From: Corynespora cassiicola
Lineage: Eukaryota; Ascomycota; Dothideomycetes; Pleosporales; Corynesporascaceae
NCBI GenBank assembly: GCA_022059125.1
Contig: JAEUWY010000001.1
Coordinates: 62,001-126,000 of the forward strand
Direction of reading: 5' to 3'
DNA: 64,000 nt
In this document: one piece after another, positions 29,892 through 61,398 of the stretch
Position numbering within the stretch: position 1 is the first letter of the stretch
How the letters are laid out: every line of letters begins with the position of its first letter
Notes under the pieces: model-generated
The model's database searches: none
What the model saw: only the letters and a program-made list of their open reading frames with translations
What the model was told of the DNA's origin: nothing
Made by a program: the position numbers and the translations under genes

Positions 29892-32886
29892 ATGAGCTTC
29901 GGGTTCAGCGTTGGTGACTTTCTGGCGGTAATTCAACTGGCCAACAAGATCAGGAAAGACTTTCTTGGCGCTCCAAGTCAGTTCAGCGATATAACCGATG
30001 TGTAAGTGAATGCGACAGACAAGAGCTAGACTGACATGGTTGATAAATAGCCTCCGAAGCCTTTCGATCGTCCTTACCGACGCTGAAGTAACCGTATCCG
30101 GACAAGATCTCAGTCTCCAAGACAAAGCAAACCTCCAGGATGTTCTTGATGGTTGCCAACGTGCTCTTCGCAAGCTAGAACACACGATAGACAAGTATAG
30201 CAAAATCGGCTCACAGCAAACGAGCATCGGCAGCAAGCTGAAAAGAATATGGAAGCGACTATCTATAGAGCCGGAGGACATCCGCGAGCTTCGGAGTAAC
30301 ATCAATGTCAACATTGCTCTACTCACTGCATTTACCGGGCGGCTGACTAGGGAAAACACAATTAGATTGGTACGATACCAGGAAGATAAGGAACAGCAAG
30401 CTGTGCTTGAATGGCTAACGCCAACCGACTATGCTCCCCAGCAGAACGACTTTCTCAAGCAGCGGCAAGCCGGATCTGGAAAATGGCTTCTAGACTCGGC
30501 GGAATTCAAAAGCTGGGTAGAGACGGAGAATCAGACCTTGTTTTGCCCGGGTATACCGGGCGCTGGGAAGACAATACTCACATCTATTGTGGTAGAAGAG
30601 CTCTCCACACGCTTCCAAGCCAAGAGTAGCCATGCCGTTGCATATATCTACTGCAACTTCAAACGGCAGACCGAGCAAACGCTGGAAGATCTACTTGCAA
30701 GCGTACTGAAGCAGCTCGCCCAAGCAACACCTTCTCTACCACAGAGTATCCGATCCCTCCATGATCGGTGTAGATCTAAGAACACCCGGCCTTCAATAGA
30801 TGATATCTCGATGGTCCTTCAGTCGATGGCTGCTGAATTTTCGCGAGTCTTCATCCTCGTCGATGCGCTGGACGAATGTCAAGTCAATGATAGCTGCCGA
30901 GCGAAGCTACTCTCACAGCTCTCACAACTTCAGAACAAGTCTGGAGCGAATCTTTTCGTGACATCAAGATTCATCCCAGACATCATGGAGAGATTTGAAC
31001 CGGACCTGTGGCTTGAAATCCGTGCCAATGAGCACGATGTGCAGAGATACATAGAGGGGCATGTAGATGAACTGCCGCGTTTTGTCCGACGTGATCCAGA
31101 CCTACAGCGGGAGATTAGTTCTGGGATCGTTAAAGCTATTGATGGCGTGTACGTAATTCCTTACAATTTTCTTGAGGATCTTTCTGACTGTACTAGGTTT
31201 CTACTTGCACAGCTTCACCTCAACTCGTTGAAGGGGAAGAGAGCCCCTACAGCTGTTCGAGATGCTTTGAAGAAGTTGCCCACTGGCACAGAATCGTATG
31301 ATCGTGCATACTCTGATGCGATGGAGAGAATCGAAGGACAACTTTCGGACGAAGAGGCGCTTGCGAAAGAAGCTCTGTCATGGATCACATGCGCCAAAAG
31401 GCCACTGACTACTACAGAGCTTCAGCATGCTCTTGCTATCCAAGTCGGACAAGCAGACTTCGATGAACAAAACAAGCCAGATATTGAGGATATCGTATCG
31501 GTATGTGCTGGACTAGTCACGATTGACGAAGAAAGCGGCATCATCCGCTTGGTGCATTACACAACGCAAGAATACTTCGAACGGACGCAAAAGCAGTGGT
31601 TCCCAACCGCAGATTTCGACATCACGGCGATCTGTGTGACTTATCTCTCATTCACTGTATTTGGAAGCGGAATCTGCCTTACAGACTCTAGCTTTGAAGA
31701 GCGGCTGCGACGCAACCCGTTGTACGATTATGCCGCAAAATATTGGGGTTGCCATGCTCGTCGAAGTAGGAGTCAAAATTCAAATGTCGTGGACTTCTTA
31801 CTGCACGAGATGAGTGTGGAAGCAGCAACTCAAGCAATGCTAGTTCGCAAACTTTATTTAACGCAATCTGACTACAGTCAGAAAACACCGAGGCAAACAA
31901 CCGGACTGCATTTAAGTGCATACTTCGGGACAATAGGAGTAGCTACGATCATTCTTGGTTGCGCAGATCCTGATCCAAAGAACTCTGACGGCCGCACGCC
32001 GCTATCGTGGGCCGCCGAGAACGGGCATGCAAGTGTCGTCAAGCTGCTGCTCGACACGGGCAAGGTCGACGTCGACTCAAAGGACACTGACGGCCGGACG
32101 CCGCTATCGTGGGCCGCCAAGAACGGGCACGAAAGTGTCGTCAAGCTGCTGCTCGACACGGGCAAGGTCGACGTCGACTCAAAGGACATGCGCGGCCGGA
32201 CGCCGCTGTGGTGGGCCGCCGGGAACGGGCATGCAAGTGTCGTCAAGCTGCTGCTCGACACGGGCAAGGTCGACGTCGACTCAAAGGACAAGTACGGCCG
32301 GACGCCGCTGTGGTGGGTCGCCAGGAACGGGCACGAAAGTGTCGTCAAGCTGCTGCTCGACACGTGCAAGGTCGACGTCGACTCAAAGGACACTCACGGC
32401 CGGACGCCGCTGTGGTGGGCCGCCGGGAACGGTCACGAAAGTATCATCAAGCTGCTGCTCGACACGGGCAAGGTCGACGTCGACTTAAAGAACACTCACG
32501 GCCGGACGCCTCTGTGGTGGGCCGCCAGGAACGGGCACGAAAGTGTCGTCAAGCTGCTGCTCGACACGGGCAAGGTCGACGTCGACTCAAAGGACACTGA
32601 CGGCCGGACGCTACTGTGGTGGGCCGCCGAGAACGAGCACGAAAGTATCGTTAAGCTGCTGCTCGACACGGGCAAGGTCGACGTCGACTCAAAGGACACT
32701 GACGGCCGGACGCTACTGTGGTGGGCCGCCAGGAACGGGCACGAAAGTGTCTTCAAGCTGCTGCTCGACACGGGCAAGGTCGACATCGACTCAAAGGACA
32801 CTGACGGCCAGACGCCGCTGTGGTGGGCCACTAGGAACGGGCACGAAAGTGTCGTCAAGCTTCTACAATCAGCTAATGCTTCGTAG
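29892..32886 (+). CDS. NACHT-ankyrin NLR (STAND protein)
   Basis: Exon 1 (29892-30001) encodes MSFGFSVGDFLAVIQLANKI, a fungal STAND N-terminal domain. It joins over a 49-bp intron to 30051. A second, 48-bp intron (31149-31196, GTACGT...CTAG) is in frame and so is easily missed; its removal restores KAIDGVFLLAQLHLNSL. The spliced protein is about 965 residues. The NACHT core has Walker A GIPGAGKT and Walker B VFILVDALDECQ. The C-terminus carries nine 34-residue ankyrin repeats (GRTPLxWAAxNGHxSVVKLL) that are almost identical to one another. Such proteins are proposed nonself or pathogen sensors: the repeats bind a ligand, and nucleotide-driven oligomerisation activates the N-terminus. Intact. 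Confidence 0.88.
31987..32862 (+). repeat. ankyrin-encoding tandem array, 102-bp units
   Basis: About nine direct repeats of 102 bp, the last truncated. Each begins with the codons for (D/H/R/Y)GRTPL and contains the same 20-mer core AAGCTGCTGCTCGACACGGG. Differences cluster at a few codons: S/W after PL, the A/R/G/E/K-N-G-H positions, and the D-T/M/K/H positions before GR. The array is expected to change length by unequal exchange. Confidence 0.9.
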
Positions 32887-34909: not shown

Positions 34910-35145
34910 TTATTAGGTCTGGTTTCGTTTCCTCGGGCCCGTTTTTGGTTCCCGCTGTGGAACCCTGTGTCACGGTAACGCTTGTACATATTTCGAAGCT
35001 CCGTCCCGCTCCACCCACTTCAGAGACGCTGGCGTCGCTCTTCATGCCTCTACGCAACGAAAAACACACGGCTTCGCACCACAACAAGGCCCGGGCAGGA
35101 AAGCGTCGGCCGTCATCCCTGCTAGCGCAGCCGAGGTGTTCATGC
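34910..35145 (+). repeat. NLR-upstream module, copy 2
   Basis: Contains GGGCCCGTTTTTGGTTCCCG near 34937, CACTTCAGAGACGCTGG, CTTCATGC...CAACGAAA, and GTCGGCCGTCATCCCTGCTA near 35105. It sits between the nuclease-like gene and HNWD gene A and could act as their shared promoter. Confidence 0.65.
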
Positions 35146-35500: not shown

Positions 35501-38500
35501 ATGGCCGAACTTATGCGTCTTTTGAGATGCAGCGATACTGGAGACTTTGGTCTCCCTGAAGCTTTCGCCGGCCACAAAACTATCCCTCCCTATGCTATTC
35601 TGTCGCATACGTGGGAAGAGGGCCAAGAGGTCACCTTCGACGATCTTGTGAACGGTACTGGAAAGGACAAGACTGGCTACGATAAGATCCGACTTTGTTC
35701 ACAACAGGCTAAACGCGATGGCTTGCAATACTTCTGGGTGGATACCTGCTGCATCGATAAGTCAAACCCTGCCGAGCTTCAGAAGGCCATCAACTCGATG
35801 TTTCGCTGGTATAGGAATGCGAGGAAGTGTTACGTATATTTACAGGATGTTTCAACTAGGAAGCGAAAAGCAAGCGATGGAGCCTTGGAATATACTTGGG
35901 AGCCAGCGTTTCGGCAAAGCAGATGGTTCAGGCGTGGCTGGACGCTTCAAGAACTGATCGCCCCAGCTTCTGTTGAGTTTTTCTCTCGAGAATGGCAGAG
36001 GCTTGGCGACAAACATTTGTTGACACAGCAAATTCAGGAAGTTACAGTGATCCCAAAAACAGCGCTGCAAGGAACCGCTATATTTCGATTCAGCGCTGAG
36101 GAACGATTTTCCTGGATACAAAGCCGTGAGACGACGGAAAAAGAAGACAAGGCGTACGCTCTCCTCGGTATTTTTGATATTGAAATGCCACTTTGTTACG
36201 GAGAAGGATACGCAAGTGCCTTTAAACGACTTCAAAAAGAGATCAGCAAGCTGAAAACATGCCTTCAAGACCTACACTCAACCGATCCCCTTAGAGATAA
36301 GAAGCGCATCGAAGATACTAAAGGCGGATTACTGCTAGACTCGTACCGCTGGATCCTGGAACATCCGGATTTCCAGCAGTGGCAAGGAGAGTCGCAAAGC
36401 CGATTGTTGTGGATCAAGGGTGACCCCGGCAAAGGGAAGACTATGCTCCTATGCGGCATCATCAACGAACTGGAAAAGTCCATAGCCGAGACATGCTTGC
36501 TCTCCTACTTCTTCTGTCAAGCTACAGACTCACGTATCAACAACGCAACGGCTGTGTTACGGGGTTTGCTGTTCACGCTTGTTAGGCAGCAGCCATCGCT
36601 CTTCTCTCATATACGGGAGAAGTACGATCAGGTAGGTAAAGCGCTCTTCGAGGATGCAAATGCCTGGGTTGCTCTATCTGAAATCTTCACGAGTATTGTA
36701 CAAGACCCAAGCCTGAAGATCACATATCTCATCCTCGACGCACTTGACGAATGTGTCACGGACCTCCCGAAACTGCTGGATTTAATTATCCAGACGTCTT
36801 CCGCATCATCACGCGTCAGGTGGATTTTGTCGAGCCGTAACTGGCTTAATATTGAGGAACGTCTCGAGCGAGCGGAGGATAAGGTCAGGCTGAGCCTAGA
36901 GCTAAATGCTGAATCAGTATCTGCTGCCGTTTGTTCCTATATAAAACACAAAGTGTCGCAGTTGGCGCAAGACAAGAAGTACAATCATCAGACGAAGCAG
37001 GCCGTACTGGATCATCTTTACACTAACGCAAATGACACTTTCCTCTGGGCAGCTTTGGTATGTCAAAATCTCGGCAACATGTCGCGGTTTAACATTGTCA
37101 CGAAGCTAAAGGCCTTCCCTCCCGGACTCGACTCTCTCTATGAGCGGATGGTGCAAAACATCAACGATTCAGAAGATGCTGGTCTCTGCAGGCAGGCGCT
37201 GGGAATAGTTTCCGCCGTGTATCGACCTATCACATTACACGAGCTGGCTTCACTTATGGAGGAGCTCGACGGCACGGATGAAGATTTGGACTCTACCCGA
37301 GGGGTTGTCAGCCTCTGCGGCTCGCTTTTGACCATCCGAGATGGCACCGTCTACTTTGTGCATCAGTCTGCAAAAGATTTTCTGCTCAAAGAGACATCTA
37401 ACACAATTTTCCCGTCCGGAGGAGAACTTGTCCACTACGCTATCTTCTCTAGATCGCTACTAGCTATGTCTAATACGCTTCAACGAGATCTTTATAGGTT
37501 AGGTGCTTTGGGGTATCCTATTGAGCAGATCCACCAGCCAGATCCCGACCCACTAGTAGCATCACGATACTCCTGTATCTACTGGGTCGATCACCTCTGT
37601 GACTTTAGTGTGAGCGCTCATGGAAACATCAGAGAGTATTTGCAGGATAGAGGCATGGTTGATGTGTTTTTACGAAAAAAGTATCTTTACTGGCTGGAAG
37701 CTCTCAGCCTCTGCCGAAGCGTATCCAAGGGTGTTGTTTCAATAACAAACCTGGCGGCCTTAGTCCAGGTAGGTACTGGACAGGCAATACATCCCTGTTA
37801 CAACGCATATTAATATATCGTAGAGTAGAGCACACGCTTCCTCATTGTATGAACTAGTCCAAGACGCATATCGATTCATAATGTATTTTAAGGTTGCAAT
37901 AGAGAGTGCGCCTCTTCAGGTATATGTATCAGCACTTCTACTTAGCCCTAGAAGCAGCTTAGTAAAGACGCTTTTTCAAGAGGAAGCACCAAAGTGGATT
38001 ACAATAGCACCATCTGTGGCAGATGACTGGTCTGCTTGCCTGCAGACGCTCGAGGGCCATAGCGATGAGGTCACCTCGGTGGCCTTCTCGCCCGACTCGC
38101 AACGGCTGGCGTCGGCGTCGAACGATAACACAGTCAAGATCTGGGACCCGACGAGCGGCAAGTGCTTTCAGACGCTCGAGGGCCATAGCGATTGGGTCCT
38201 CTCGGTGGCCTTCTCGTCCGACTCGCAACGGCTGGCGTCGGCGTCACGCGACAAGATGGTCAAGATCTGGGACCCGACGAGCGGCAAGTGTTTGCAGACG
38301 CTCGAGGGCCATAGCGATGAGGTCAACTCGGTGGCCTTCTCGACCGACTCACGGCGGCTGGCGTCGGCGTCATACGACAAGACGGTCAAGATCTGGGACC
38401 CGACGAGCGGCAAGTGCTTTCAGACGCTCGAGGGCCATAGCGATTGGGTCCTCTCGGTGGCCTTCTCGTCCGACTCGCAACGGCTGACGTCGGCGTCATA

Positions 38501-39629
38501 CGACAACACGGTCAAGATCTGGGACCCGACGAGCGGCAAGTGCTTGCAGACGCTCGAAGGCCATAGCAGTTCAGTCAGCTCGGTAGCCTTCTCGCCCGAC
38601 TCACAGCGGCTGGCGTCGGCGTCATGCGACAAGACGGTCAAGATCTGGGACCCGACGAACGACAAGTGCCTGCAGACGCTCGAGGGCCATAGCAGTTCAG
38701 TCCTCTCGGTGGCCTTCTCGCCCGACTCACAGCGGCTGGCGTCGGCGTCATACGACAACACAGTCAAGGTCTGGGATCCGACGAGCGGCAAGCGCTTGCA
38801 GACGCTCGAGGGCCATAGCCATGCGGTGAGCTCGATAGTCTTCTCGCCCGACTCGCAACGGCTGGCGTCGGCGTCAATCGACGAGACAGTCAAGATCTGG
38901 GACCCGACGAGCGGCAAGTGCTTGCAGACGCTCGAAGGCCATAGCAGTTCAGTCAGCTCGGTGGCCTTCTCGCCCGACTCACGGCGGCTGGTGTCGGCGT
39001 CATACGACAAGACGGTCAAGATCTGGGACCCGACGAACGACAAGTGCCTGCAGACGCTCGAGGGCCATAGCGATTGGGTCCTCTCGGTGGCCTTCTCGTC
39101 CGACTCGCAACGGCTGGCGTCGACGTCAGTAGACAATACAGTCAAGATCTGGGACCCGACGAGCGGCAAGTGCTTTCAGACGCTCGAGGGCCATAGCAGT
39201 TTGGTCCTCTCGGTAGCCTTCTCGCCCGACTCGCAACGGCTGGCGTTGGCGTCAATCGACGAGACGGTCAAGATCTGTGACCCGACGAGCGGCAAGTGCT
39301 TGCAGACCATTAGTGTTGACACATTCCTTCACAGCACAGCTTTTACTGCTGATGGTTCATCCCTGCACACTGATATGGGCACTATTGCCGTTAATGCGCC
39401 TATGGCCTTGTCGTCTTCAAACATGACAGACATTACAGTTACTGAGCAGGCGCAGTTTCAAGGGGTTGCTTTGAGCTCAGACAAAGCATGGATAACTTAC
39501 AATTCACGAAACATCGTGTGGCTTCCACCTGAATATCGACCATCAGACTCAGCTGTATCTGGCGCACAGATAGGAATTGGGGTTGGAACTGGAAGGGTGT
39601 GGATATTTAGCGTTCAGTTTGAAGAGTAG
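35501..39629 (+). CDS. HNWD gene A: HET-NACHT-WD40 NLR, 10 WD repeats
   Basis: Exon 1 (35501-37768) and exon 2 (37824-39629) join over a 55-bp GT-AG intron to about 1357 residues. The HET domain (PPYAILSHTWEEGQEVTFDD; YFWVDTCCIDK; RGWTLQELIAP; ALLGIF) is followed by NACHT with Walker A GDPGKGKTM and Walker B LILDALDECV. A helical linker and ten 42-residue WD repeats (QTLEGHSxxVxSVAFSPDS type) follow. The architecture is that of the Podospora het-e/het-d/het-r family: WD repeats recognise a ligand, NACHT oligomerises, and HET triggers the incompatibility cell-death response. The ATG at 35501 has good context, but the one at 35513 (MRLL) matches the other two HNWD starts. Uninterrupted and likely functional. 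Confidence 0.92.
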
Positions 39630-39770
39630 AAGCCGATTTCAGAACGTTTTCATTTTTGTCTTTCTATCTTCTACGATCTCTCAAGAGGGGTCCGGGGATG
39701 TAGGTAAATATATTACAGAAGAGTTTGCCACAGAAACTTCGAGATTTATTTTAGTCATCAGCAAAGACAG
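37860..39770 (+). repeat. left arm of inverted duplication around transposon C
   Basis: The WD40 exon of gene A plus 141 bp of 3' flank are mirrored at 41605-44155. The innermost 87 bp are identical and end exactly at the TA beside the transposon. The coding part before the WD array is also nearly identical by eye. The arrays themselves differ in number and order of units. Confidence 0.85.
38037..39296 (+). repeat. WD40 array of HNWD gene A, ten 126-bp units
   Basis: Ten consecutive 126-bp direct repeats encoding 42-residue WD units. Frameworks such as CAGACGCTCGAGGGCCATAG and GTCAAGATCTGGGACCCGAC are nearly invariant. Variation concentrates just after GHS (D/S/H then E/W/S/A/L), at the residue before S in VxS, and at SASxDx (N, R, Y, C, I, V then N, K, E). 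Confidence 0.92.
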
Positions 39771-39772
39771 TA

Positions 39773-41602
39773 ACGTGTTCCACCAGTCAGTGAGCCACAC
39801 CACTCAGTGAGCCAGCCCCACCAAACACCCGACGCGTCCTACACCAAACACGCGATGCCGTCACAACACGATGTTCAGCAGCTCCAGAAAGAAGGTAGAC
39901 TAGCTTTATCGAAGCAGGCGATTCAGAATAAGCAGGTGTTAAGCTATCGGCACGCTGCAAAGCTTTACAACATTGATCGATCGACCCTGCGCCGTCGCGT
40001 CCATGGTACCCCCTCTCAAGCCACCAGCAACGCCCAGAAACGAAAGCTACACCAGCTAGAGGAGCAGGCTCTAGTACAGTGGATACTAGAGCTCGACCGA
40101 CGTGGATTTCCTCCTCAGATTATCGACGTACGGCGGATGGCAGACCATATACTAGCTGCGCGCGGCCAGACACCCCCACCAGCACCAGTTGGCAAGAACT
40201 GGGTCGATCGATTTATCAAGGCTCAGCCAGAGCTACAGACAAAGTGGAATCGTCGATTCCATTCCCAGAGAGCTCTATGTGAGAATCCAGAGGCAATCAA
40301 CACTTGGTTTAAGCGTGTAGAGGAGACACGCCTCTCCTACGGCATTGTTGACGAAGATATCTACAACTTTGATGAGACTGGCTTCGCTATGGGTGTCGCA
40401 GCTACCTCAAAAGTAGTTACTAGCTCTGACACTATAGGTCGACGAGCAACGATACAGCCAGGGAATCAAGAGTGGGTGACTAGTATTGAGTGTATCAACG
40501 CGTCTGGGTGGGCTATCTCTCCCTTCCTCATCTTCCCAGGTAAGGTCCACCAGGCAGCCTGGTACGAAGGCCTACCTGCCGACTGGATGCTCGCAGTCAG
40601 CGACAACGGCTGGACGACCGATCAGCTTGGTCTAGCCTGGCTACAGCACTTTGACAGCTCTACACGGACGCGCGTAGCTGGCACCTATCGACTCCTTATT
40701 GTCGACGGCCACAGCAGCCATACTACGCCAGAATTCGACACCTACTGTACAGAGAATAAGATAGTTACACTCTGTATGCCTGCACACACGTCGCATTTAC
40801 TACAGCCACTTGATGTTAGCTGCTTCTCTCCTCTTAAGCGAGCGTACGGACAAAGTGTACAGAAGCTGGCTCGGCAGGGTGTCCACCACATCGACAAGCT
40901 CAACTTTCTCTCCTTCTATACTAGAGCTAGACTACTAGCTCTAACTGAGCAGACGATCAAGAGTGGATTTCAAGCTACAGGGCTTGTGCCAGCTAATCCC
41001 CAGCGTGTGCTGTCGTCGCTGACAGTTATCAACAAGACTCCATCGCCTCCATCAACCTCGCATGGAGAGCCCTGGACGGCAGAGACACCTCATACAACCG
41101 CGCAGCTCGAGCAGCAGGCTCGCCTTGTTAAGCAGCTTCTCCAGCGCAACTCACAGAGCCCGACAAGCCAGGCAGTCAATCAAGTTATTAAAGGCTGCCA
41201 GATGGCTCTAGCCGAAACTGCTATTCTTAGGAAGGAAGTTAACGAGTTACGAGCTGCACATCAACGCCGAGGACATAAGCAGAATGTACGCCGTAGGTAC
41301 ATCGCTCAGGGAGGAGCTCTACAGGCGCAGGCAGGCCGGCAGCTTGTCGCAGGGTTAGATATTGTTGATCAAGAGGTGCTGGCGAGCGAAGGCTCTACTA
41401 CACGCCAGCGCGCACCACGAACGTGTTCGAAGTGCTATACACAAGGTCATGATAGTCGTCAATGTACAAGTAGCTAAAGAATGTATATATTAATTTCTAG
41501 CTCAATTAGTTTTATTATTGTAGTGCTATCGGCCAAAAAGCGTGCTCGATTTGGTGGGGCTGGCTCACTGAGTGGTGTGGCTCACTGACTGGTGGAACAC
41601 GT
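39773..41602 (+). mobile_element. Fot1/pogo element C, coding-intact, at centre of inverted duplication
   Basis: Perfect inverted repeats of about 53 bp beginning ACGTGTTCCACCAGTCAGTG, with the subunit CAGTGAGCCA twice in tandem, and TA duplications at 39771-39772 and 41603-41604. 1830 bp long. Element D at 21.5 kb belongs to the same family. The flanks are mirror images of each other. Confidence 0.93.
39855..41477 (+). CDS. Fot1/pogo transposase (element C), 540 aa
   Basis: Undamaged single-exon DDE_1 transposase from ATG 39855. Helix-turn-helix RHAAKLYNIDRSTLRRRVHG, then MADHILAARGQ...VGKNWVDRFIK; catalytic Asp motifs IYNFDETGFAMG, RLLIVDGHSSH and HLLQPLDVSCFSPL; C-terminal zinc knuckle CSKCYTQGHDSRQC. 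Uses of non-ATG starts further upstream would run into the terminal repeat and are unlikely. Confidence 0.92.
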   Translation: MPSQHDVQQLQKEGRLALSKQAIQNKQVLSYRHAAKLYNIDRSTLRRRVHGTPSQATSNAQKRKLHQLEEQALVQWILELDRRGFPPQIIDVRRMADHILAARGQTPPPAPVGKNWVDRFIKAQPELQTKWNRRFHSQRALCENPEAINTWFKRVEETRLSYGIVDEDIYNFDETGFAMGVAATSKVVTSSDTIGRRATIQPGNQEWVTSIECINASGWAISPFLIFPGKVHQAAWYEGLPADWMLAVSDNGWTTDQLGLAWLQHFDSSTRTRVAGTYRLLIVDGHSSHTTPEFDTYCTENKIVTLCMPAHTSHLLQPLDVSCFSPLKRAYGQSVQKLARQGVHHIDKLNFLSFYTRARLLALTEQTIKSGFQATGLVPANPQRVLSSLTVINKTPSPPSTSHGEPWTAETPHTTAQLEQQARLVKQLLQRNSQSPTSQAVNQVIKGCQMALAETAILRKEVNELRAAHQRRGHKQNVRRRYIAQGGALQAQAGRQLVAGLDIVDQEVLASEGSTTRQRAPRTCSKCYTQGHDSRQCTSS

Positions 41603-41604
41603 TA

Positions 41605-44155
41605 CTGTCTTTGCTGATGACTAAAATAAATCTCGAAGTTTCTGTGGCAAACTCTTCTGTAATATATTTACCTACATCCCCGGACCCCTCTATGAAATAG
41701 AGATCGTAGAAGATAGAAAGACAAAAAGAAAACGTTCTAAAATCGGCTTCTGACTTACTCTTCAAACTGAGCGCTGAGTACCCACACCCTTCCAGTTCCA
41801 GCCCCAATGCCAATCCGTGTGCCAGATACAGCAGAAGCTGATGGTCGATACTCAGGTGGAAGCCACAGAAGGTTTCGTGAATTATAAGTTATCCATACTT
41901 TTTCTGAGCTCAAAGCAACCTCTTGAAACTGCGCCTGCTCAGCAACTGTAATGTCTGTCATGTTTGAAGATGGCAAGGCCATAGGTGCATTAATGGCGAT
42001 AGTTCCAATATCAGTGTGCAGGGATGAACCATCAGCGTTAAAAGCTATGCTGTGAAGGTATGTATTGAAACTAATGGTCTGCAAGCACTTGCCGCTCGTC
42101 AGGTCCCAGATCTTGACCGTGTTGTCGTCTGACGCCGACGCCAGCCGTTGCGAGTCGGGCGAGAAGGCCACCGAGCTGACCGAACCGCTATGGCCCTCGA
42201 GCGTCTGCAAGCACTTGCCGCTCTTCAGGTCCCAGATCTTGACCGTCTTGTCGCGTGACGCCGACGCCAGCCGTTGCGAGTCGGGCGAGAAGGCCACCGA
42301 CCTGACCGAACCGCTATGGCCCTCGAGCGTCTGCAAGCACTGGCCGCTCGTCAGGTCCCAGATCTTGACCGTGTTGTCGTCTGACGCCGACGTCAGCCGT
42401 TGCGAGTCGGGCGAGAAGGCCACCGAGTTGACCCAATCGCTATGGCCCTCGAGCGTCTGCAAGCACTGGCCGCTCGTCGGGTCCCAGATCTTGGTCGTCC
42501 TGTCGCGTGACGCCGACGCCAGCCGTTGCGAGTCGGGCGAGAAGGTGACCGACCTGACCCATTCGCTATGGCCCTCGAGCGTCTGCAAGCACTTGCCGCT
42601 CGTCGGGTCCCAGATCTTGGTCGTCCTGTCGCGTGACGCCGACGCCAGCCGTTGCGAGTCGGGCGAGAAGGCCACCGAGCTGACCGAACCGCTATGGCCC
42701 TCGAGCGTCTGCAAGCACTGGCCGCTCGTCGGGTCCCAGATCTTGGTCGTCCTGTCCCATGACGCCGACGCCAGCCGTTGCGAGTCGGGCGAGAAGGCCA
42801 CCGAGCTGACCCATTCGCTATGGCCCTCGAGCGTCTGCAAGCACTTGCCGCTCGTCAGGTCCCAGATCTTGACCGTGTTGTCGTCTGACGCCGACGCCAG
42901 CCGTTGCGAGTCGGGCGAGAAGGCCACCGAGTTGACCCAACGGCTATGGCCCTCGAGCGTCTGCAAGCACTTGCCGCTCGTCAGGTCCCAGATCTTGACC
43001 GTGTTGTCGTGTGACGCCGACGCCAGCCGTTGCGAGTCGGGCGAGAAGGCCACCGAGCTGACCCAATCGCTATGGCCCTCGAGCGTCTGCAAGCACTGGC
43101 CGCTCGTCAGGTCCCAGATCTTGACCGTCTTGTCGTCTGACGCCGACGTCAGCCGTTGCGAGTCGGGCGAGAAGGCCACCGAGTTGACCGCACTGCTATG
43201 GCCCTTGAGCGTCTGCAAGCACTTGCCGCTCGTCAGGTCCCAGATCTTGACCGTCTTGTCCCATGACGCCGACGCCAGCCGTTGCGAGTCGGGCGAGAAG
43301 GCCACCGACCTGACCGAACCGCTATGGCCCTCGAGCGTCTGCAAGCACTGGCCGCTCGTCAGGTCCCAGATCTTGGTCGTCCTGTCGCGTGACGCCGACG
43401 CCAGCCGTTGCGAGTCGGGCGAGAAGGCCACCGAGTTGACCGCACTGCTATGGCCCTTGAGCGTCTGCAAGCACTTGCCGCTCGTCAGGTCCCAGATCTT
43501 GACCGTCTTGTCCCATGACGCCGACGCCAGCCGTTGCGAGTCGGGCGAGAAGGCCACCGACCTGACCGAACCGCTATGGCCCTCGAGCGTCTGCAAGCAC
43601 TGGCCGCTCGTCAGGTCCCAGATCTTGGTCGTCCTGTCGCGTGACGCCGACGCCAGCCGTTGCGAGTCGGGCGAGAAGGCCACCGAGTTGACCGCACTGC
43701 TATGGCCCTTGAGCGTCTGCAAGCACTTGCCGCTCGTCAGGTCCCAGATCTTGACCGTCTTGTCGCGTGACGCCGACGCCAGCCGTTGCGAGTCGGGCGA
43801 GAAGGCCACCGAGCTGACCGAACCGCTATGGCCCTCGAGCGTCTGCAAGCACTGGCCGCTCGTCGGGTCCCAGATCTTGACCGTGTTGTCGTGTGACGCC
43901 GACGCCAGCCGTTGCGAGTCGGGCGAGAAGGCCACCGAGTTGACCCAATCGCTATGGCCCTCGAGCGTCTGGAGGCAAGCAGACCAGTCATCTGCCACAG
44001 ATGGTGCTTTTGTGATCCACTTTGGTGCTTCCTCTTGAAAAAGCATCTTTACTAAGCTGTGCCTAGGGCTAAGTAGAAGTGCTGATACATATACCTGAAG
44101 AGGCGCACTCTCTATTGCGACCTTAAAATACATAATGAATCGATATGCGTCCCGA
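41605..44155 (-). repeat. right arm of inverted duplication around transposon C
   Basis: Mirror of 37860-39770: 3' flank and WD40 exon of HNWD gene B. It contains 15 rather than 10 WD units, so it is longer than the left arm. Confidence 0.85.
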
Positions 44156-46498
44156 ATTAGTTCAACTAATAAATGTGCGTGTTCTCTACTCTATATCATA
44201 TTAGCATGCATTTTTATAAAACTATATTGCTCGATTAGTACTTGCCTGGACTAAGGCTGCCAGCTTTGCCATTGAAACAACCCCCTTAGATACGCTTTGG
44301 CAGAGGCTGAGAGCTTCCAGCCAGTAAAGATACTTTTTTCGTAGAAACACATCAACTATGCCTCTATCCTGTAAAATCTCTTTGTCGATTTCAGCAGAGC
44401 TGATGATAAAGTCGCATAGATGGTCGATCCAGTAGATACAAGAATATCGTGATTCTGCTAGCGGGTCGGGATCTGGCTGCTGGATTCGTTCAGCAGGGTA
44501 CCCCAACTCCTGTAGGCCGTACATGTCTCGATGCAACGTTGTGGACATGCTATGGAGTGACCTAGAAAAGACAGACCAATGAACTTCCCCTTTTCCGGAA
44601 GGGAAGATCTTATGAAATGCTTTTGTCGACAGAAAGTCCTTGGCTGACTGATGAATAAAGTAGACAGTGTTCTCTCGTAGGGTGAGAAAAGAGCCGCAGT
44701 GGCCAATGATCTCATGGACAGACTCGAGATCGTCTGTCAAATCCGTAAGCTGGTCAGCAAGCGCCATCAGCTCGTCTAGTGTAACAGGCCGGTAAACAAC
44801 GGTGGCTAATGCCAGTATCTGCTTGCTAACCTCTGCATCATCTGACGTGTATATCTGCTGCATCATCCGTTCGTACAGCCCATCAAGACCAGCCGGAAAG
44901 GCGTTCAATTTCTTTACGACGTTTCGCTTTGGAACGCTCTCGAGGCTTTGACACACCAACGCTACCCAAAGAAAAGTGTCTTGTGCATTAGAAGATAGAT
45001 GCTCCAGCACAGCATCTTGTGTTTTGTCGTCGTATTTTTTCTTCTCCGCTATCTGACGCACTTTGTACCGAATAAACACCTCAACAGCAGTGGATACAGA
45101 CTTTGCATTGAGTTCGAGACTCAGTCTCACCTTGTTTTCTGCTCTCTCAAGCTTTTCCTCAATGTCTGGCCAGTTGCGGCTCGACACAATCCATTTAGCG
45201 CGAGACGACCTAACTGATTTAACGATAAAGTCTAACAGCTTTGGCAAGTCCGATGCTATACATTCGTCGAGTGCGTCGATGATGAAGTATGTCTTGTTCA
45301 TGTTCGGATCTTCTAGCATGTGTGTGAAGATTTCAGAAAGAGCCACCCAAGCATTCGCATCTTCAAAGAGCGCTCTTCCTGCATGGTCATACCTCTTCCG
45401 AATATGTGTAGTGAGCCATGGTTGTTGATTGACAAGCATATACAGCAAGCCTCGTAAGACTGCTGTAGCATTGTTGATGCGCGAGTCGGTAGCTTGACAG
45501 AAGAAGAAAGAGAGCAGATCTGTGCTAGGTATTGACTTCCTCAGCTCGTCGGCAATGCCACATAGTAGCATCGTCTTTCCCTTGCCGGGATCACCCTTGA
45601 TCCACAATAGCCGACCCTGGTTGCCGTTTTGCCATTGTTGGAATTCGGGATTCTCAAGAATCCAACGATATGAGTCTCCTAATAGGCCACCTTTGGTTTC
45701 TTCGATGCGCTTCTTGTCGTCACGAGGGTTGGTAAGGTGTAGGCCTTGGATACACTTCTCTAGTTTGCTGACCTCGTCCAGTAGCCTTCGGAATGCCTCC
45801 TTCGCTCCCTCGCCGTAGATGGGGGCTATGTATACCCCGAAAATGCCTAGCAATGAATATACCCCGTCTTCTTCGCGTGTGGTGTGCCGGTTTTCTCTCC
45901 ACAACAATCGATCATCAACATTGAACTGGGACAACGGCTTGCCTTCGAGGGCTGACACAGGAATACCTGTTATTTCGTGTATCAGTTGTTTGAGAAGTCT
46001 TTTGTCCCCTATAAGTTGCCATTCCCGAGAGAAGAACTCGACCGAGGGGGGAGCAAGAAGCTCTTGGAGCGTCCAGCCACGAGTAAACCACCTACTACTC
46101 CGAAGGGTTGGCTCCCAAGCAGATCCAGAGACTTGGTTGTTTACTGCCTGCTCAGGTTCTGAAACATCTAACAGATAGACGTAGCACTTGGCAGCCCTTT
46201 GGTACCAGCGAAACATGGAGTTAATCGCTTCCCGCAGTTCAACGTGGTCTGCCTTGTTGATGCAGCATGTATCCACCCAAAAGTATTGCAAGCCATCACG
46301 TTTAGCTTGCTGTCCACAGAGCTGGATCTTTTTGTAGCCATTCTTGCTCTTTCCCGTGCCATCTGTTAACTCATTATAGGTGACTTCCTCGCCGTCCTCC
46401 CAGGTGTGTGAAAGGATCGCATAAGGAGGAATCTTATCGCCAACCAAGAACTTGGTCAGAACAAATCCATCCTCGCTAGTGTGCTTTAGAAGACGCAT
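41755..46498 (-). CDS. HNWD gene B: HET-NACHT-WD40 NLR, 15 WD repeats, chimeric
   Basis: Exon 1 (46498-44246) and exon 2 (44190-41755) give about 1562 residues. The 55-bp intron has a GC-AG border (CAG|GCAAGT...ATAG), at the same place and length as gene A's GT-AG intron. HET: PPYAILSHTWEDGEEVTYNE, YFWVDTCCINK, RGWTLQELLAP; Walker A GDPGKGKTM at residues 302-310; Walker B FIIDALDECIA. Then a linker, 15 WD units and a C-terminal tail shared with gene A. HET-NACHT and the 5' flank are almost identical to gene C, but the end of exon 1, the intron, the WD exon and the 3' flank are like gene A. Intact and presumably a sensor with new specificity. Confidence 0.9.
42088..43977 (-). repeat. WD40 array of HNWD gene B, fifteen 126-bp units
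   Basis: Fifteen near-identical 126-bp units. Two-unit blocks recur: the pair ending SRDRTTKIWDLTSGQ / SWDKTVKIWDLTSGK, introduced by SSAVNS / SGSVRS, occurs twice in succession, evidence of recent block duplication. Variable codons are the same as in gene A. The antisense strand is also open along its whole length as a by-product of repeat composition. Confidence 0.92.
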
Positions 46499-46949: not shown

Positions 46950-47090
46950 CTTTGTTCCTAGTGTCTGCCCGAAGGGGAACTGGACGAACACCAGGGTCGT
47001 GCTAGCAGGGATGACGGCCGACGCTTTCCTGCCCGGGCCTTGTGATGGAGATATTGAAACTTCCGGGTGGAAAAGGAAAAAGAGATGAGA
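46950..47090 (-). repeat. NLR-upstream module, partial copy upstream of gene B
   Basis: The reverse strand reads CATCACAAGGCCCGGGCAGG then AAAGCGTCGGCCGTCATCCC. It is the same block as in copies 2 and 3, and continues into the 5' flank shared with HNWD gene C (TTCGGGCAGACACTA). Homology to the outer part of the module is not visible here. Confidence 0.6.
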
Positions 47091-49881: not shown

Positions 49882-50690
49882 AGCTAACGATCACACATCT
49901 GCTCACGCGAAGAGCCGTTTTGATGAAGTATGGAGAGCTTCATCGACTGACGAACCGGAAGATTGATAGACGATGACCCAACAGAAGAGCCATGATTAGC
50001 CCATTTCGAAGGGTCGGCTTTCAGACCAATCAGAAGCATAGCCGGGCTCCTCCGAGTGGACGTTGAGACGAGCGTGAAAGCCATGACATCATAGCCTCCA
50101 GTTTAGTCGCACAAAAGAACACCAGAGGGCTGGCTCTCCCCGTTTTCGAGAACATCATACTCATACCGGAGTGCACTTTTTTCCGTTTTCGAATTTTTGC
50201 AGTGGCGCCAAGCCTGGTTTGCCACTTCCGCAGCTCTCTCATACGCATTGCGGGGTGTTATCAGAAACGTGTCACGAAAGCTGTTGTTGTATATCTGGTC
50301 GTATGTTACACTGCATTGCGAAGTTATACAAGGTTGTCATGGGGGTTCATGTAGTTTGAATGTTGGCTGCGGGTTGGTTGTTAACTAAGCGGTGCTTCGT
50401 GACTGCCAAGGCCAAAGCTATATCTACCCTATGTTGATCCAAAAGCTACTGCCACACTCACACAAGCTTACCGTATCCCTTGTTCTGTATCCATAGATTT
50501 CAATGTGACACCTGCAGCGGAGCCCTATGTCTGCGCTCCAAATCCCAAGAATTCTCAAGATCAAGCGTAACTTATATTTTAGTAGGCGATTCGTTCAAAC
50601 TAGACTAGAGAGTCTTCTGTCACCGTAGCCGACAGGCTCCTCTATTCTATTCTGTGAACCAAGGCTTATCTACTTTCGTTCGCACTGGCA
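49882..50690. other. intergenic between regulator and small secreted protein gene
   Basis: No gene recognised; presumably the promoter of the regulator. Confidence 0.35.
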
Positions 50691-50696
50691 TACCTT

Positions 50697-53000: not shown

Positions 53001-53286
53001 AGATTCAGGCTCGCTAGGGGCTTGCTTTGAAGCTGAGAGTTTATTAGTGAGGTAAAGGCACAGACCCGAAGGTTCAAATTCTGGCTCTACTATCTGTTAT
53101 AAATTTGTTTTACATTGGCCTGTTTTATTAAATGAGTAAATAAAGATGGTGTTATCTGTTACACTTTGTAGCGCTTACCACTGGTTACAATGTTGATGCA
53201 GAATAAGCTAGCCGGCTGATACGACCTAGTAGCCGTTAAATGTGGCGACTTAATGTAATGCAAAATAAAAAACAATTACCATAATT
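53001..53286. other. intergenic, no gene recognised
   Basis: A GGTTCAAATTC string at about 53073 looks tRNA-like, but no stem can be built around it. No other feature. Confidence 0.4.
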
Positions 53287-55249: not shown

Positions 55250-55500
55250 TCTAAAATTAGCCAAACATTGACCCTCAAACTGTCACCGTGCAGGCCTCTT
55301 TTTGGTTCCCGCTGTGGGGCGTGGGCCCTGCTTTTGAACCCTAGTTCCGATTAGCACATTTTCGAGGCACCGCCCTACTCTGCCTAATTCAAAGACACTG
55401 GAAACGCTCTTCATGCTTTTGCACAACGAAACATCACAGCTCGGTCCCGGGCAGGAATGTGTCGGCCGTCATCCCTGCTAGCGCGATCCTGGTGTTCGTC
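55250..55500 (+). repeat. NLR-upstream module, copy 3
   Basis: CTTTTTGGTTCCCGCTGTGG near 55300, CTAATTCAAAGACACTGG, CTTCATGC...CAACGAAA, and GTCGGCCGTCATCCCTGCTA near 55460. It lies between the PDDEXK_12 gene and HNWD gene C. It is closer to copy 1 in the middle and to copy 2 at the right end. Confidence 0.65.
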
Positions 55501-55984: not shown

Positions 55985-58900
55985 ATGCGTCTTCTAAAGC
56001 ACACTAGCGAGGATGAATATGTTCTGACGAAGTTCTTAGTTGGCGATAAGATTCCTCCTTATGCGATCCTTTCACACACCTGGGAGGACGGCGAGGAAGT
56101 CACCTATAACGAGTTAACAGATGGCACGGGAAAGAGCAAGAATGGCTACAAAAAGATCCAGCTCTGTGGGCAGCAAGCTGAACGTGATGGCTTACAATAC
56201 TTTTGGGTGGATACATGCTGCATCAACAAGGCAGACCACGTTGAACTGCGGGAAGCGATTAACTCCATGTTTCGCTGGTATCAAAGGGCTGTCAAATGCT
56301 ACGTCTACCTGTCAGATGTTTCGAAATCTGGACAGACAGTAAACAATGAAGTCTCTGGGTCTGCTTGGGAGCCAGCCTTTCGGGGTAGTAGGTGGTTTAC
56401 TCGTGGCTGGACGCTCCAAGAGCTTCTTGCTCCCCCCTCGGTCGAGTTCTTCTCTCGGGAATGGCAGATTATAGGGGATAAAAGGCTTCTCAAACAACTG
56501 ATACACGAAATAACAGGTATTCCTGTGTCAGCACTTGAAGGCAAGCCGTTGTCCCAGTTCAATGTTGATAATCGATTGTTGTGGAGAGAAAACCGGCACA
56601 CCACACGCGAAGAAGACGGGGCATATTCATTGCTAGGCATTTTCGAGGTATATATAGCCCCCATCTACGGCGAGGGAGCGAAGGAGGCATTCCGAAGGCT
56701 ACTGGACGAGGTCAACAAACTAGAGAAGTGTATCCAAGGCCTACACCTTACCGACCCTCGTGACGACAAGAAGCGCATCGAAGAAACCAAAGGTGGCCTA
56801 TTAGGAGACTCGTATCGTTGGATCCTTGAGAATCCCGAATTCCAGCAATGGCAAAACGGCAATCAGGATCGGCTGTTATGGATCAAGGGTGATCCTGGCA
56901 AGGGAAAGACGATGCTCGTCTGTGGCATTGCCGACGAGCTGAGGAAGTCAATACCTAGCACAGATCTGCTGTCTTTCTTCTTCTGTCAGGCTACCGACTC
57001 GCGCATCAACAATGCTACAGCAGTCTTACGAGGCTTGCTATACATGCTTGTCGATCAACAACCATGGCTCACTATACATATTCGGAAGAAGTACGACCAT
57101 GCAGGAAGAGCGCTCTTCGAAGATGCGAATGCCTGGGTGGCTCTCTCTGAAATCTTCACGCACATGCTAGAAGATCCGAACATGAACAAGACATACTTCA
57201 TCATCGATGCACTCGACGAATGTATAGCATCGGATTTGCCAAAGCTGTTAGACTTTATCGTTAAATCAGTTAGGTCGTCTCGCGGTAGATGGATTGTGTC
57301 GAGCCGCAACTGGCCAGACATTGAAGAAAAGCTTGAGAAAGCAGAGAACAAGATGAGACTGAGTCTCGAACTCAACGCAAAGTCTGTATCCATGGCAGTT
57401 GAGGTGTTTATTCGGTACAAAGTGCGTCAGATAGCGGAGAAGAAAAAATACGACGAAAAAACACGAGATATTGTACTGAAGCATCTATATTTTAATGCAC
57501 ACGACACTTTTCTTTGGGTAGCGTTGGTATGCCAGAGCCTCGAGAACATTCCAAAGCGAAACGTTGCAAAGAAATTGAACGCCTTTCCGGCTGGCCTTGA
57601 CGGGCTATACAAGCGTATGATGCAGCAAATACACAAATCAGATGATGCGGAGGTTTGCAAGCAGATCCTGGCATTGGCCACGGTTGTTTACCGGCCCATC
57701 ACACTAGAAGAGCTGGTGACGCTTGCTGACCAGCTTACGGATGTGGCAGACGACCTCGAGTCTGTCCGTGAGATCATTGGCCACTGCGGCTCTTTCCTCA
57801 CCCTACGAGAGAACACTATCTACTTTGTTCATCAGTCAGCAAAAGAATTTCTATTCACCAACGCATTCAATGAAGTCTTTCCTTCTGGGAAAGAAGAAGC
57901 TCATTATGCAATATTTTCGAGATCACTCCAGACTATGTCTACGACGCTAAAACGAGACATTTACGACTTGGGTGCGCCAGGATATCCCGCGGAGCATATT
58001 CAATCACCAAATCCAGACCCATTATCGTCGTTGCGCTATTCGTGTATATTCTGGATTGATCATCTTTGCGACTGGAATCCTAATCCTTCTGTATGTAGGG
58101 GTACTGAATTACAAAATGAAGGAGCAACCCACAGGTTCTTAAGAAAAAAGTATCTTTACTGGCTCGAATCTCTTGGCATTTGTAAGAGCATATCAAAGGG
58201 AATAGTCTCTATGAGAAAGCTTGAGGTCTTGATACAGGTAACAGTTTTTTTAGAGATTCTGATACTCGTAACAGTTTCTAACCTATGTTAGGGAATGCCA
58301 GGCGCATCCGCGCTGATCGAGCTTGTTATAGATGCCCGCCAATTTTTATTGTATCACAAGCGGGCGATAGAGACCAGTCCTCTACAAGTATATACATCTG
58401 CACTCGTGTTCAGCCCAGCTCGTAGTTTAATAAGGCATATGTTTCAACAGGAACAACCTGAGTGGATCACAATAAAGCCAGGCATAAGAGACAATTGGAA
58501 TGATTTCGTCCAATCGCTTGAGGGTCATAGCGATACTGTTGACTCAGTCGCTTTCTCACACGACTCAAAACAAGTTGCTTCGGCGTCTTTCGATAATACG
58601 GTCAAGATCTGGGACATAGTCGGCAATGAATGTCTGAAGACACTTAAGGGCCATAAGAGTTGGGTCCGATCAGTGGCATTCTCTTGCGACTCAGCACGAC
58701 TTGCTTCAGCGTCATTTGATGAGACAATCAAAATCTGGGATACAAGAAGTGGAAATTGTGTATGGACACTTGAGGGTCATAACGACAGCATTTTCTCGAT
58801 CAGCTTTTCATCAAACTCAACATGGCTTGCATCAGCGTCCGACAGCATAATTAAGGTTTGGAATACAAACAACGGCAAATGTCTGCAAACACTTAAAGGT

Positions 58901-60442
58901 CATAGTGGCATAGTGTGGTCAGTAGCATTTTCGCCTGATTCTACACGGCTTGCATCCGCGTCACACGACTGCACAGTTAAAATCTGGAATCCAAGTAGTG
59001 GTGAGTGCCTACGGACAATCGCGGATCATAACGGTCCAGCTGAGTCAGTTGTCTTCTCACACAATTCTGCCTGGCTGGCATCAGCGTCTGGCTACTGTGC
59101 AGCTAAGATTTGGGATGTTGATAGTGGTGAATGCTTGCAGACGCTGAGAAGCAAGAGTAGCTCTGTCAGATCAGTCGCCTTGTCGCCGGACTCAGCATAT
59201 CTCGCGTCAGCGTCAGATAGCACAGTCAAGATCTGGAATATAAGTAGCGGCGAATGTGTGCGAGCACTCAAAGGTCATAGCGGCGTTGTGTGGTCCGTAG
59301 CATTCTCGCCCGATTCTGCACGGCTTGCGTCCGCATCAAACGATCGCACAGTTAAAATCTGGGACATATGCAATAATATGTATCTAGATATGGTCGATGA
59401 TAATGATAACAAGCCGGAGTGTACCACATTGTCAGGAGGCTCAACAGAATCTGCATTAGCGCCTATTGAGAATACGTTAAAGATTCGGGATATAAGCGGC
59501 GACGAGTTCCTGGGGTTGCTCAAGGGTCACAGCAGGGCTATTACTTCAATTACCTTATCGAAAGACCTGTTACGGTTTGCTTCCGCATCAGAAGACTGTA
59601 CGATTAAGATTTGGGATACAAGCAGTCATGAGTGTCTGCAGACGCTCGAGGGCCATGACGGCCCTCTCACTCTAGTAGCCTTTTCACACGACTCGACTCA
59701 GCTTGTATCAGCATCGCACGACTGTAAAGTTAAGATATGGGACAATAGTAGTTTCGAATGCTTGCAGACGTTTGAGGGTCATAGGGGTCCTGTTTGGTCG
59801 GCAGTCTTCTCGCATGACTCATCACAACTTGCATCAGGCTCACACGATGGCACAATTAAAGTCTGGAACGCAAGAAATGGCAAATGCCTACGAACATTTA
59901 AGGGTCACAGCAGTGCGGTCTGCTCGGTAGCCTATTCCTATGACTCGTCCTGGTTAGCATCCGCGTCGTACGACAACATGGTTAAGATCTGGGATATAAA
60001 TGGCGACGAGTGCTTCCAGGTGCTTAAGGGCCATAGTAGATGGGTCAGGTCGGTAGCCTTCTATCCTAACTCGGAACAACTTGTATCATCGTCAGATGAT
60101 TACACACTCAAGATTTGGAATTTGACCAGTGGTGAATGTCTTCAGACATTCACCATCAACGAAGCACTTCTCGACATTTCGATTGATGCAGACAGCCTCA
60201 ATCTCCGCAGCTCAACTGGAACAATTCTTTTAGCTGATAGCCGGAGAATAGCGGGTTCACAGAAGTTGAATTATCAAGGTTGGGCTTTAAGTTCAGACGG
60301 ATTATGGATAACCCATAATTCAAACAATGCAATATGGCTACCTTCAGATTACTTGCCATCTTGTTCAATTGTATCAGACAACATAATCTGTATAGGTGTT
60401 GGGTCAGGAGAGGTATGGACGTTCAAGCTCAACAATCTTTAG
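55985..60442 (+). CDS. HNWD gene C: HET-NACHT-WD40 NLR, 13 diverged WD units
   Basis: Exon 1 (55985-58237) and exon 2 (58292-60442) join over a 54-bp GT-AG intron (branch TTCTAAC) to about 1467 residues. HET and NACHT are nearly the same as in gene B (PPYAILSHTWEDGEEVTYNE; GDPGKGKTM; FIIDALDECIA). Exon 2 differs greatly: WD units such as CLQTLKGHSGIVWSVAFSPD and CLRTFKGHSSAVCSVAYSYD are diverged from one another. One unit near residues 1115-1157 has lost the GH and WD signatures (MYLDMVDDNDNKPE...TLKIRDI). This is an ordinary, non-homogenised propeller, in contrast with genes A and B. Intact frame. Predicted nonself sensor with a HET effector. Confidence 0.9.
58503..60150 (+). repeat. WD40 array of HNWD gene C, about 13 diverged units
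   Basis: Units of about 42 residues; nucleotide identity between units is low compared with genes A and B. One unit (about 59390-59515) is degenerate. Only one unit (about 59640) retains the CAGACGCTCGAGGGCCATG wording seen in genes A and B. Confidence 0.85.
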
Positions 60443-61398
60443 GAATGGTTTGTGTACAAATAGCTCAATTTCATAAACATTGTGTGTCTGCCTGATAAAA
60501 TTCCAATTCAAGCGCGCACATGTATACTGTTAGACTGCAACCTTGTGGTAAAGTACTTGAAATTCTCACTGATAGATAGGACGAATGACCCTTTCTGGCC
60601 ACGCCCCGGGGAACTTTCTGGAAACTACAGAAATGCACTAGGCTCTGCAAAAAAAACCTGTTCAGACTCTTCAGAAATCCCGTAAGGGGTTTTTGGTGTA
60701 GTGGATGTTTTCATGCAAGTTCACCTTCAGATGTTATCTGAAAAATCTCACACATAATAGGATATCCACAATCATCGTTTTCGCTGTCGTACATGCTTTA
60801 GTCTGGATTGTTGTTTCATGTGCAAGCCTTTCTTAGTTCATCTTCATATGGATCATAGATGGAATCTTGTTGAACTTGAAGTGTCGTCTTCTTTGCTTGA
60901 GTATTTTCAATTCCAATATTGTCTTCTAAATGAGGCAAGCTTTGCATACAGGTCATGTCCAAGGACCTTACTCTGACAACCATAATAACCGCAGATTACG
61001 AAGTCTGAATGAGAGTAATGGTTGCACTTTAGTGTGAGATCTAGACGGGATGAGTAAGAAGATGACTTGATTACAAATGGATTTTTGGTGTACATCCGGC
61101 TGCCGCCATGAACAGGGATAACCGCCGATCTTTTTCTGTCCAGATCTTGTGATGGAGACACCAGAATTCTTAAATTAAGGAAAGCCACTATACAAAGTTA
61201 TCAGTGATTGTTTGCTGTATGCGAAAGAGCGAGTGCCAAGAGTTTTCGGGTGCAGGTTCCGCTGGTGGCTGCATTAGGTCCTGAGACCCACCACGGGAAC
61301 CAGAATAGGACCCGACCTTAGTCACGCCCAGCGCGTGATTAGTGCGGAGACTGATTTCTTGCACTCCAATAAGTTCGTAAATAGCAAGCTTAGCTAAA
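60443..61398. other. intergenic between HNWD gene C and FunK1 gene (convergent)
   Basis: No gene recognised. It contains the inverted module copy at 61100-61325. Confidence 0.4.
61100..61325 (-). repeat. NLR-upstream module, inverted diverged copy
   Basis: The reverse strand reads, in the same order as the upstream copies, TTCTGGTTCCCGTGGTGG (about 61310) and then CATCACAAGATCTGGACAG...GATCGGCGGTTATCCCTG (about 61110-61155). It lies 3' of HNWD gene C, facing copy 3. Confidence 0.5.

Follow-up and report, generated by a model that had tools for sequence, protein, structure and literature searches.

Repeat turnover inside the WD array of fungal NOD-like receptors (NLRs) is already known, and how these receptors gain new specificities is an open question. 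It is posed in concrete form by a 64,000-nucleotide stretch of the Corynespora cassiicola genome (assembly GCA_022059125.1, contig JAEUWY010000001.1, positions 62,001 to 126,000 of the forward strand; here called the window), in which one receptor gene, B, resembles a second gene, C, in its effector (HET-NACHT) half and a third gene, A, in its WD40 sensor half. The first-pass annotation had read B as a new gene that joined the effector of C to a duplicated sensor of A. Once paralogues were compared, such a plain two-parent origin of B was given up. Judged from sequence, the effector and sensor halves of the family have different trees and so have been recombined, and it was quite probably the group of A, as well as C, that acquired different sensor halves through recombination in the hinge, directly upstream of the intron, whereas B keeps an inherited pairing.

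Gene structure and the switch within gene B

By their predicted domain order, A, B and C are HET-NACHT-WD40 NLR genes of one family, of the HNWD type. A search of the window's own genome at the DNA and protein level (44.35 Mb, 23 contigs; the counts are lower bounds) found the paralogues A2, A4, A5, B2, B3, D, E and F; for A2, E, F and C it found a second copy as well, on other contigs. A, B and C are each divided by a single intron of 54-55 bases at the same place, with splice sites predicted from sequence:

35501-39629, plus strand: gene A, two exons, predicted from sequence
35501..37768, plus strand: gene A exon 1, 756 codons; HET, NACHT, a weak winged-helix match and a helical hinge (Pfam HET, NACHT, NPHP3_N)
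37769..37823, plus strand: gene A intron, with a GT donor of the type of A5, B2 and B3
37824..39629, plus strand: gene A exon 2, with a 72-codon lead-in, 10 WD repeats of 42 amino acids and a tail
46498-41755, minus strand: gene B, two exons, predicted from sequence
44246..46498, minus strand: gene B exon 1, 751 codons; HET, NACHT, a weak winged-helix match and a hinge
44191..44245, minus strand: gene B intron, with a GC donor common to A2 and A4
41755..44190, minus strand: gene B exon 2, with a 72-codon lead-in, 15 WD repeats and a tail
55985-60442, plus strand: gene C, two exons, predicted from sequence
55985..58237, plus strand: gene C exon 1, 751 codons
58238..58291, plus strand: gene C intron, positioned as in A and B
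58292..60442, plus strand: gene C exon 2, a divergent WD40 sensor with array stretches ~65-68% alike in DNA

All three genes encode an N-terminal HET domain (PF06985) and a NACHT domain (PF05729), both above cut-off, and their translations contain GDPGKGKT, presumably the P-loop motif. A and B end in a WD40 array of high internal identity, built of 126-base units. The array of C, with its stretches ~65-68% alike, lacks the high internal identity of HNWD-type NLRs, and the earlier description of its WD exon as very different is correct also for the lead-in, which is 57.3% identical to that of B.

Identities, computed over one alignment of the eleven distinct family genes, agree with the earlier observation that B is not uniformly like one parent. 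Over the 5' flank, HET-NACHT, the end of exon 1, the intron and the lead-in, B is 96.2%, 93.7%, 61.8%, 40.7% and 57.3% identical to C, and 43.2%, 65.8%, 85.1%, 60.0% and 90.2% identical to A in the corresponding stretches. The turn from C-like to A-like, which had been noticed late in exon 1, lies at codons ~660-710 and was placed by MaxChi at alignment column 3155 (codon ~661, window ~44517), with a value that 0 of 1000 permutations reached; the same held in each of 16 triplets, 13 of which break at columns 3095-3309, equivalent to codons ~641-712. Breakpoints were placed in all three genes:

44364..44518, minus strand: breakpoint zone in B, codons ~661-712 (MaxChi, Viterbi painting)
37598..37605, plus strand: breakpoint in A, codons ~699-701, A2/A4-like before it and patchy A5/B3-like after it (MaxChi, painting)
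57905..57940, plus strand: breakpoint zone in C, codons ~641-653, where C leaves the B cluster (MaxChi)

An AlphaFold2 model of B exon 1 (30 sequences; mean predicted local distance difference score, pLDDT, 75.7; predicted template modelling score, pTM, 0.40) has a poorly defined stretch at residues 655-677 that separates two helical blocks, and the breakpoint zone falls past the winged helix, around this stretch; the model thus suggests that the swapped unit would be roughly the whole C-terminal half. For exon 2 (the part from 44133 on; mean pLDDT 73.7, pTM 0.43), most repeats are modelled well, with a dip at residues ~340-390 and both ends poor.

On the finer scale, B is a small mosaic by its sequence similarities, with an A2/A4-like intron and lead-in and repeats nearest to those of A5. 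Its claimed closeness to C in the 5' flank and HET-NACHT was found, and B2 (93.5%) and B3 (93.2%) are about equally close over HET-NACHT, where C is nearest by a very small margin; the 5' flank is nearer to B3 (98.4%) than to C. In Viterbi painting, B begins as B3-like (97%), continues as C-like (96%) and then, up to codon ~709, as B2-like (95%); an A4-like tract extends from codon ~714 as far as the first repeat, with 95% identity (87% to A), and a small number of short pieces are interspersed among these main tracts. The first-pass annotation had matched B to A in everything from the intron to the 3' flank, and this holds in part. The intron position agrees, as it does family-wide, but the intron sequence is close to those of A2 (90.4%) and A4 (89.1%) and not to that of A (60.0%). 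The lead-in does match that of A, but belongs to the A4-like tract. The WD array is of the type of A, but its repeats, compared outside the hypervariable codons, are nearer to A5 (96.8%) and A4 (95.1%) than to A (93.5%). Just past the stop codon the flank is indeed 98-100% identical to that of A (other A/B-type members, 73-91%), but the tails of the two genes are ~86-93% alike.

The intron types suggested a reciprocal exchange, in which A and B, as inverted neighbours, would have crossed over and swapped their 3' halves in one step by inversion: B has the GC donor of A2 and A4, A has the GT donor of A5, B2 and B3, and A, too, breaks at codon ~700. Painting past the intron does not bear this out, as A is patchy from codon ~700 on, with pieces nearest to B3 and A4 past the intron and a tail with A5, A4 and A2 pieces that is mostly A4-like and not B-cluster-like. 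We consider such an exchange very improbable.

Separate histories of effectors and sensors

Trees were calculated with one copy per gene (11 of 15 rows, more distant or broken relatives being left out). In the effector tree, F is followed by the group of A, A2 and A4 (support 100/100), then by E, D and A5, and finally by the B cluster of B, B2, B3 and C (100/100). The sensor tree has C and F outside, then E and D (99/99), and then a cluster of A, A2, A4, A5, B, B2 and B3 (100/100). The topologies of the two halves thus differ, and the genes that change place between them are A, A2, A4 and C. Approximately unbiased (AU) tests reject, for the effector, B with the A group (p = 2e-8), the A group with the B cluster (5.4e-4 with C, 8.6e-51 without C) and C outside the cluster of A5, B, B2 and B3 (5e-44). 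For the sensor, they reject B+C (4e-5), B+B2+B3+C (1e-6) and A5+B+B2+B3+C (1e-7), the A group outside D (4.5e-9), and, as clades, the A group (0.019) and A5+B+B2+B3 (0.003). Not rejected are B+B2+B3 without C for the effector (0.07), and the A group with B (0.48) and C+E (0.16) for the sensor. These rejections and the different trees support the earlier view that effector and sensor halves are modular.

The simplest history suggested by the trees consists of two sensor replacements. In an older one, the A group would have kept its old effector and acquired a B-type sensor; in the other, C would have kept a B-type effector and acquired a sensor from a donor that is not seen among the matches in this genome. 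The pairing of an A5/B-type effector with the shared sensor type is found in B, B2, B3 and A5 (4 of the 11 distinct genes) and that of the A group in A, A2 and A4 (3 of the 11); since D and E are the next relatives of B's group in both halves, the B-type pairing looks inherited. Smaller tracts, likely due to gene conversion, would have made the intron and lead-in of B A2/A4-like and its 3' flank A-like.

Wider relatives were collected by two protein searches with gene C as the query, of which the best 120 of 5883 and the best 120 of 632 matches gave 193 proteins. Both landmarks were needed and were present in 94 of the 193; together with the 11 own genes and after a length filter, 104 rows remained, 43 of which went into trees. 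Like B, P0032 and P0078 of C. cassiicola strain Philippines have the shared sensor type joined to an effector of the A5/B type, and their effectors are 83-90% and 80-87% identical, respectively, to those of B, B2, B3 and A5. Each of the two parts of F is 99% identical to P0180 of the same strain, which indicates that the window probably stems from this species. In the wider protein tree, the A-group effector groups with Polyplosphaeria P0097 (100/99), the hinge and lead-in of which group with F (100/99), unlike its effector. In this wider set, the effector data reject a union of the A group with the B cluster (1.5e-6), and the data for hinge and lead-in reject one of C with B, B2 and B3 (4e-4). 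Among the 104 rows, the closest to the hinge and lead-in of C reach at most 62% identity. Among named HNWD proteins, those of Podospora pseudocomata and P. bellae-mahoneyi match C along its length at 49-50%.

With these relatives at hand, the idea that B is a recent chimera of a C effector and a copied A sensor can be weighed. The C-like to A-like switch, the lead of C over HET-NACHT by a hair, the tail-to-tail arrangement of A and B with an identical 87-base flank arm (see below) and the survival of B+C (effector) and A+B (sensor) in the AU tests all speak for it. However, the same pairing is present in B2, B3, A5, P0032 and P0078, the intron is like A2 and A4 (90% and 89%) and not like A (60%), the repeats are nearest to A5, and the tail is only ~86-93% like that of A although the flank is identical. 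We therefore regard a recent chimeric origin of B as improbable; the claim that B is the new gene is not supported.

Another history would reverse the direction: C could retain the original sensor of the B cluster, and B, B2, B3 and A5 could have received an A-type sensor through gene conversion. The WD repeats of Podospora NWD genes are described as undergoing concerted evolution, both inside a locus and from one locus to another (Paoletti et al., 2007; PMC1805685), and the repeats of our genes are about as alike between A and A5 (0.946, vs 0.928 within A) and between B and A5 (0.968, vs 0.972 within B) as within A or B. Yet D and E stand next to the B cluster in both halves, so that this takeover would require their conversion, too, and the lead-in and tail are common as well, beyond the repeats. 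We hence consider it unlikely and prefer sensor replacement in the A group and in C.

Several points weigh against the preferred history. Three of the 16 MaxChi triplets break elsewhere (columns 2314, 2642 and 3520). The sensor tree rests on the 72-codon lead-in and the tail, with the repeats left out, and the order inside its seven-gene cluster is mostly without support; C has a long sensor branch, and the tail alone groups C with E (85/81), with a warning of long branches. As the groupings for the AU tests were picked with the trees already in view, the p values are optimistic. Moreover, AU does not reject B+C alone for the effector (p = 0.39) and A+B alone for the sensor (p = 0.11), so that a reading confined to the three window genes survives those tests. 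The wider protein trees were calculated with a simpler model, without a mixture model, and in the short wider protein set the exclusion of the A group from the shared sensor is rejected weakly (0.03).

If sensor replacement is correct, the whole sensor half, non-repeat parts included, appears to have been separated from the effector at least twice in one family. The family then offers natural pairs, in that B and C combine the same type of effector with different types of sensor, and A and B the same type of sensor with different types of effector, and sensor replacement becomes a testable route to new fungal NLR specificities.

The A-B junction, the copy of C and a bracket motif

The tail-to-tail pair of A and B is separated by a transposon, which lies inside a palindrome:

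39773..41602, plus strand: transposon with DDE_1, Tc5-type helix-turn-helix, 53-base identical terminal inverted repeats and TA target duplications
39684..39770, plus strand: palindrome arm in the 3' flank of A, 87 bases, a perfect inverted copy of 41605-41691
41605..41691, minus strand: palindrome arm in the 3' flank of B, 87 bases, an inverted copy of 39684-39770

With its DDE_1 transposase, terminal inverted repeats and TA target duplication, the element at 39773-41602 is a DNA transposon, which we take to be Pogo/Fot1-like. Its nearest other match in the genome is 71% identical over ~1.2 kb, and further ones are shorter or weaker. Three more open reading frames with DDE_1 matches lie upstream at 22081-28989, the two larger ones of 545 amino acids each. 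When the transposon gap is closed, a perfect 176-base palindrome results, with a TA, one of its 15 TA sites, at the exact centre; 87 bases without a difference have a chance of ~1e-4 at 10% divergence. Insertion of the transposon at the centre of an existing palindrome and homogenisation of the flank after insertion both fit. Recent fold-back copying at the transposon was also considered as the source of the sensor of B, with that of A as the template. Although the flank arms show no differences, tail and repeats diverge by ~7-14%, which makes a simple recent copy of this kind unlikely; the flank may have been homogenised later.

The second copy of C lies on contig C5 (within C5:6054300-6062300) and is 99-100% identical over window ~55390-61180, ~5.8 kb, except for a patch at 57389-57788 (91-96%); identity drops off on both sides of the copy. 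C6:2819623-2824774 is 97-98% like window 50295-55448 and ends near the bracket of C described below. It was considered as an empty site for C, but the sequence 3' of C matches C6 only elsewhere, and the stretch is therefore no simple empty site. Also 3' of C, at 61399-63669, there is a fungal protein kinase gene (PF17667, two open reading frames), and DNA relatives of this stretch adjoin A4 and A5; the annotation of P0032 unites a kinase with an NLR in a single protein, which may reflect a fused gene model. A further NLR at 30010-32886, upstream of A, combines NACHT with a high-identity ankyrin array of 102-base units.

Upstream of the family genes we found a 39-base motif, which in some cases recurs in inverted orientation past the gene. 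In the window it occurs as follows:

35088..35126, plus strand: bracket motif 5' of A, 39 bases
47001..47039, minus strand: bracket motif 5' of B, 39 bases
55444..55482, plus strand: bracket motif 5' of C, 3 of 39 mismatches
61108..61146, minus strand: degenerate inverted bracket motif 3' of C, 14 of 39 mismatches

Twelve rows were tested, C being counted twice with its copy. The upstream motif has at most 6 mismatches in 9 of the 12, and an inverted copy 212-227 bases past the stop codon has at most 6 mismatches in 5 (A2, A4, A5, B2 and B3); none of 1000 mononucleotide shuffles gave a match with fewer than 16. These five genes, to judge from the motif copies, are bracketed by a shared inverted motif. 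The 3' motifs of C and of its copy have 14 mismatches each. F has 13 on the 5' side and 17, within chance, on the 3' side, and its ends form an inverted pair of their own (53 bases, 85%) that only weakly resembles the bracket motif. Among the tested rows, the motif is at chance level on both sides of D and E and on the 3' side of A and B, where the expected place falls past the junction with the transposon. For an 18-base core, the genome has 59 matches with at most 2 mismatches (21 exact), vs 3 for a reversed control, and the motif recurs in a small number of regions of the contigs, next to further NLR genes and fungal-kinase genes. Ten further motif loci were read, with one chosen open reading frame scanned per locus: six gave ankyrin, NACHT or NB-ARC/TPR matches and one a fungal kinase, and the remaining three gave an AnmK-type kinase, a domain of a transcription factor, or no match. 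These ten loci, all of them read around the motif, suggest, but do not show, an association of the motif with NLR genes.

An explanation of the motif as the ends of an ordinary transposon found no support: D and E have no motif, and no target site duplication was found outside the inverted motifs of six modules, the longest common stretch being 5 bases in one module. More tentatively, and with considerable doubt, the NLR genes might be receptor cassettes bracketed by one inverted motif of ~40-60 bases, with the bracket serving to copy whole cassettes between loci and the hinge serving to exchange sensor halves. If true, this would be a two-level system for making recognition receptors, with a logic comparable to that of mating-type or variant surface glycoprotein (VSG) cassettes; bracket motif and palindrome, if confirmed, would indicate a physical route of exchange.

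WD repeats and comparison with known systems

The repeat set comprises 69 repeats of seven genes (A 10, B 15, A2 15, A4 12, A5 4, B2 10, B3 3; C, D, E and F are not included). By a counting estimate, codons 9, 10, 12, 28 and 30 are the most variable, with mean nonsynonymous (pN) and synonymous (pS) differences of 0.51 and 0.23, compared with 0.06 and 0.22 at the other codons; the WD codons 11 and 29 are conserved between the hypervariable codons 10 and 12, and 28 and 30. At codons 10, 12, 28 and 30, the 69 repeats show 58 combinations. Outside the hypervariable codons, mean unit identity is 0.93 in A and 0.97 in B, and no identical 126-base unit is common to two of the seven genes. Repeat numbers vary widely (3, 4, 10, 10, 12, 15, 15), and 3 and 10 differ by seven, which is the blade number of one WD propeller. 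In the WD array, the copy of A2 on C3 is 122 bases shorter than the copy on C2 and out of frame, which may reflect a real change or a repeat collapsed in the assembly.

By analogy with the HNWD proteins of Podospora, the WD propeller is predicted to bind a ligand via the hypervariable codons, NACHT to oligomerise and HET to start cell death, and a sensor swap would couple a trigger that already exists to another recognition surface.

The kind of event seen here, domain reassortment with conflicting genealogies, is known, and whole-sensor exchange with breakpoints and a bracket motif is what our analysis adds. An open-access literature search found no report on Corynespora NLR sensor exchange or on bracketed fungal NLR cassettes. 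HNWD genes are reported to have slightly conflicting genealogies along the gene, with repeats that move between paralogues (Ament-Velasquez et al., 2025; PMC12222747); the conflicts described there are slight and concern domains and repeats, whereas here the two halves are separated with AU support and hinge breakpoints. A study of fungal NLRs describes swaps of N-terminal domains on near-identical NODs (Dyrka et al., 2014; PMC4986451), so that domains are reassorted in both cases, at the N-terminus there and in the C-terminal sensor here. For Sordariales, NLR clusters have been proposed to favour unequal crossover and gene conversion (PMC12258605), which is a general proposal, whereas individual mosaics are traced here.

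The closest known system is the HNWD family of Podospora anserina (het-d, het-e and het-r), which belongs to the Sordariales, whereas the family described here is from the Pleosporales. Both share the HET-NACHT-WD40 order and, in A and B, the 42-amino-acid repeats of high identity. According to Paoletti et al. (2007; PMC1805685), codons 7, 9, 25 and 27 of the Podospora WD repeats are positively selected and codons 8 and 26 conserved; our hypervariable codons have the same spacing, shifted by three, and variable codon 9 has no counterpart among the four selected ones. Unlike in Podospora HNWD, a transposon-centred palindrome and bracket motifs are present here, and the whole sensor exon, together with hinge, intron, tail and 3' flank, is common to deep effector groups.

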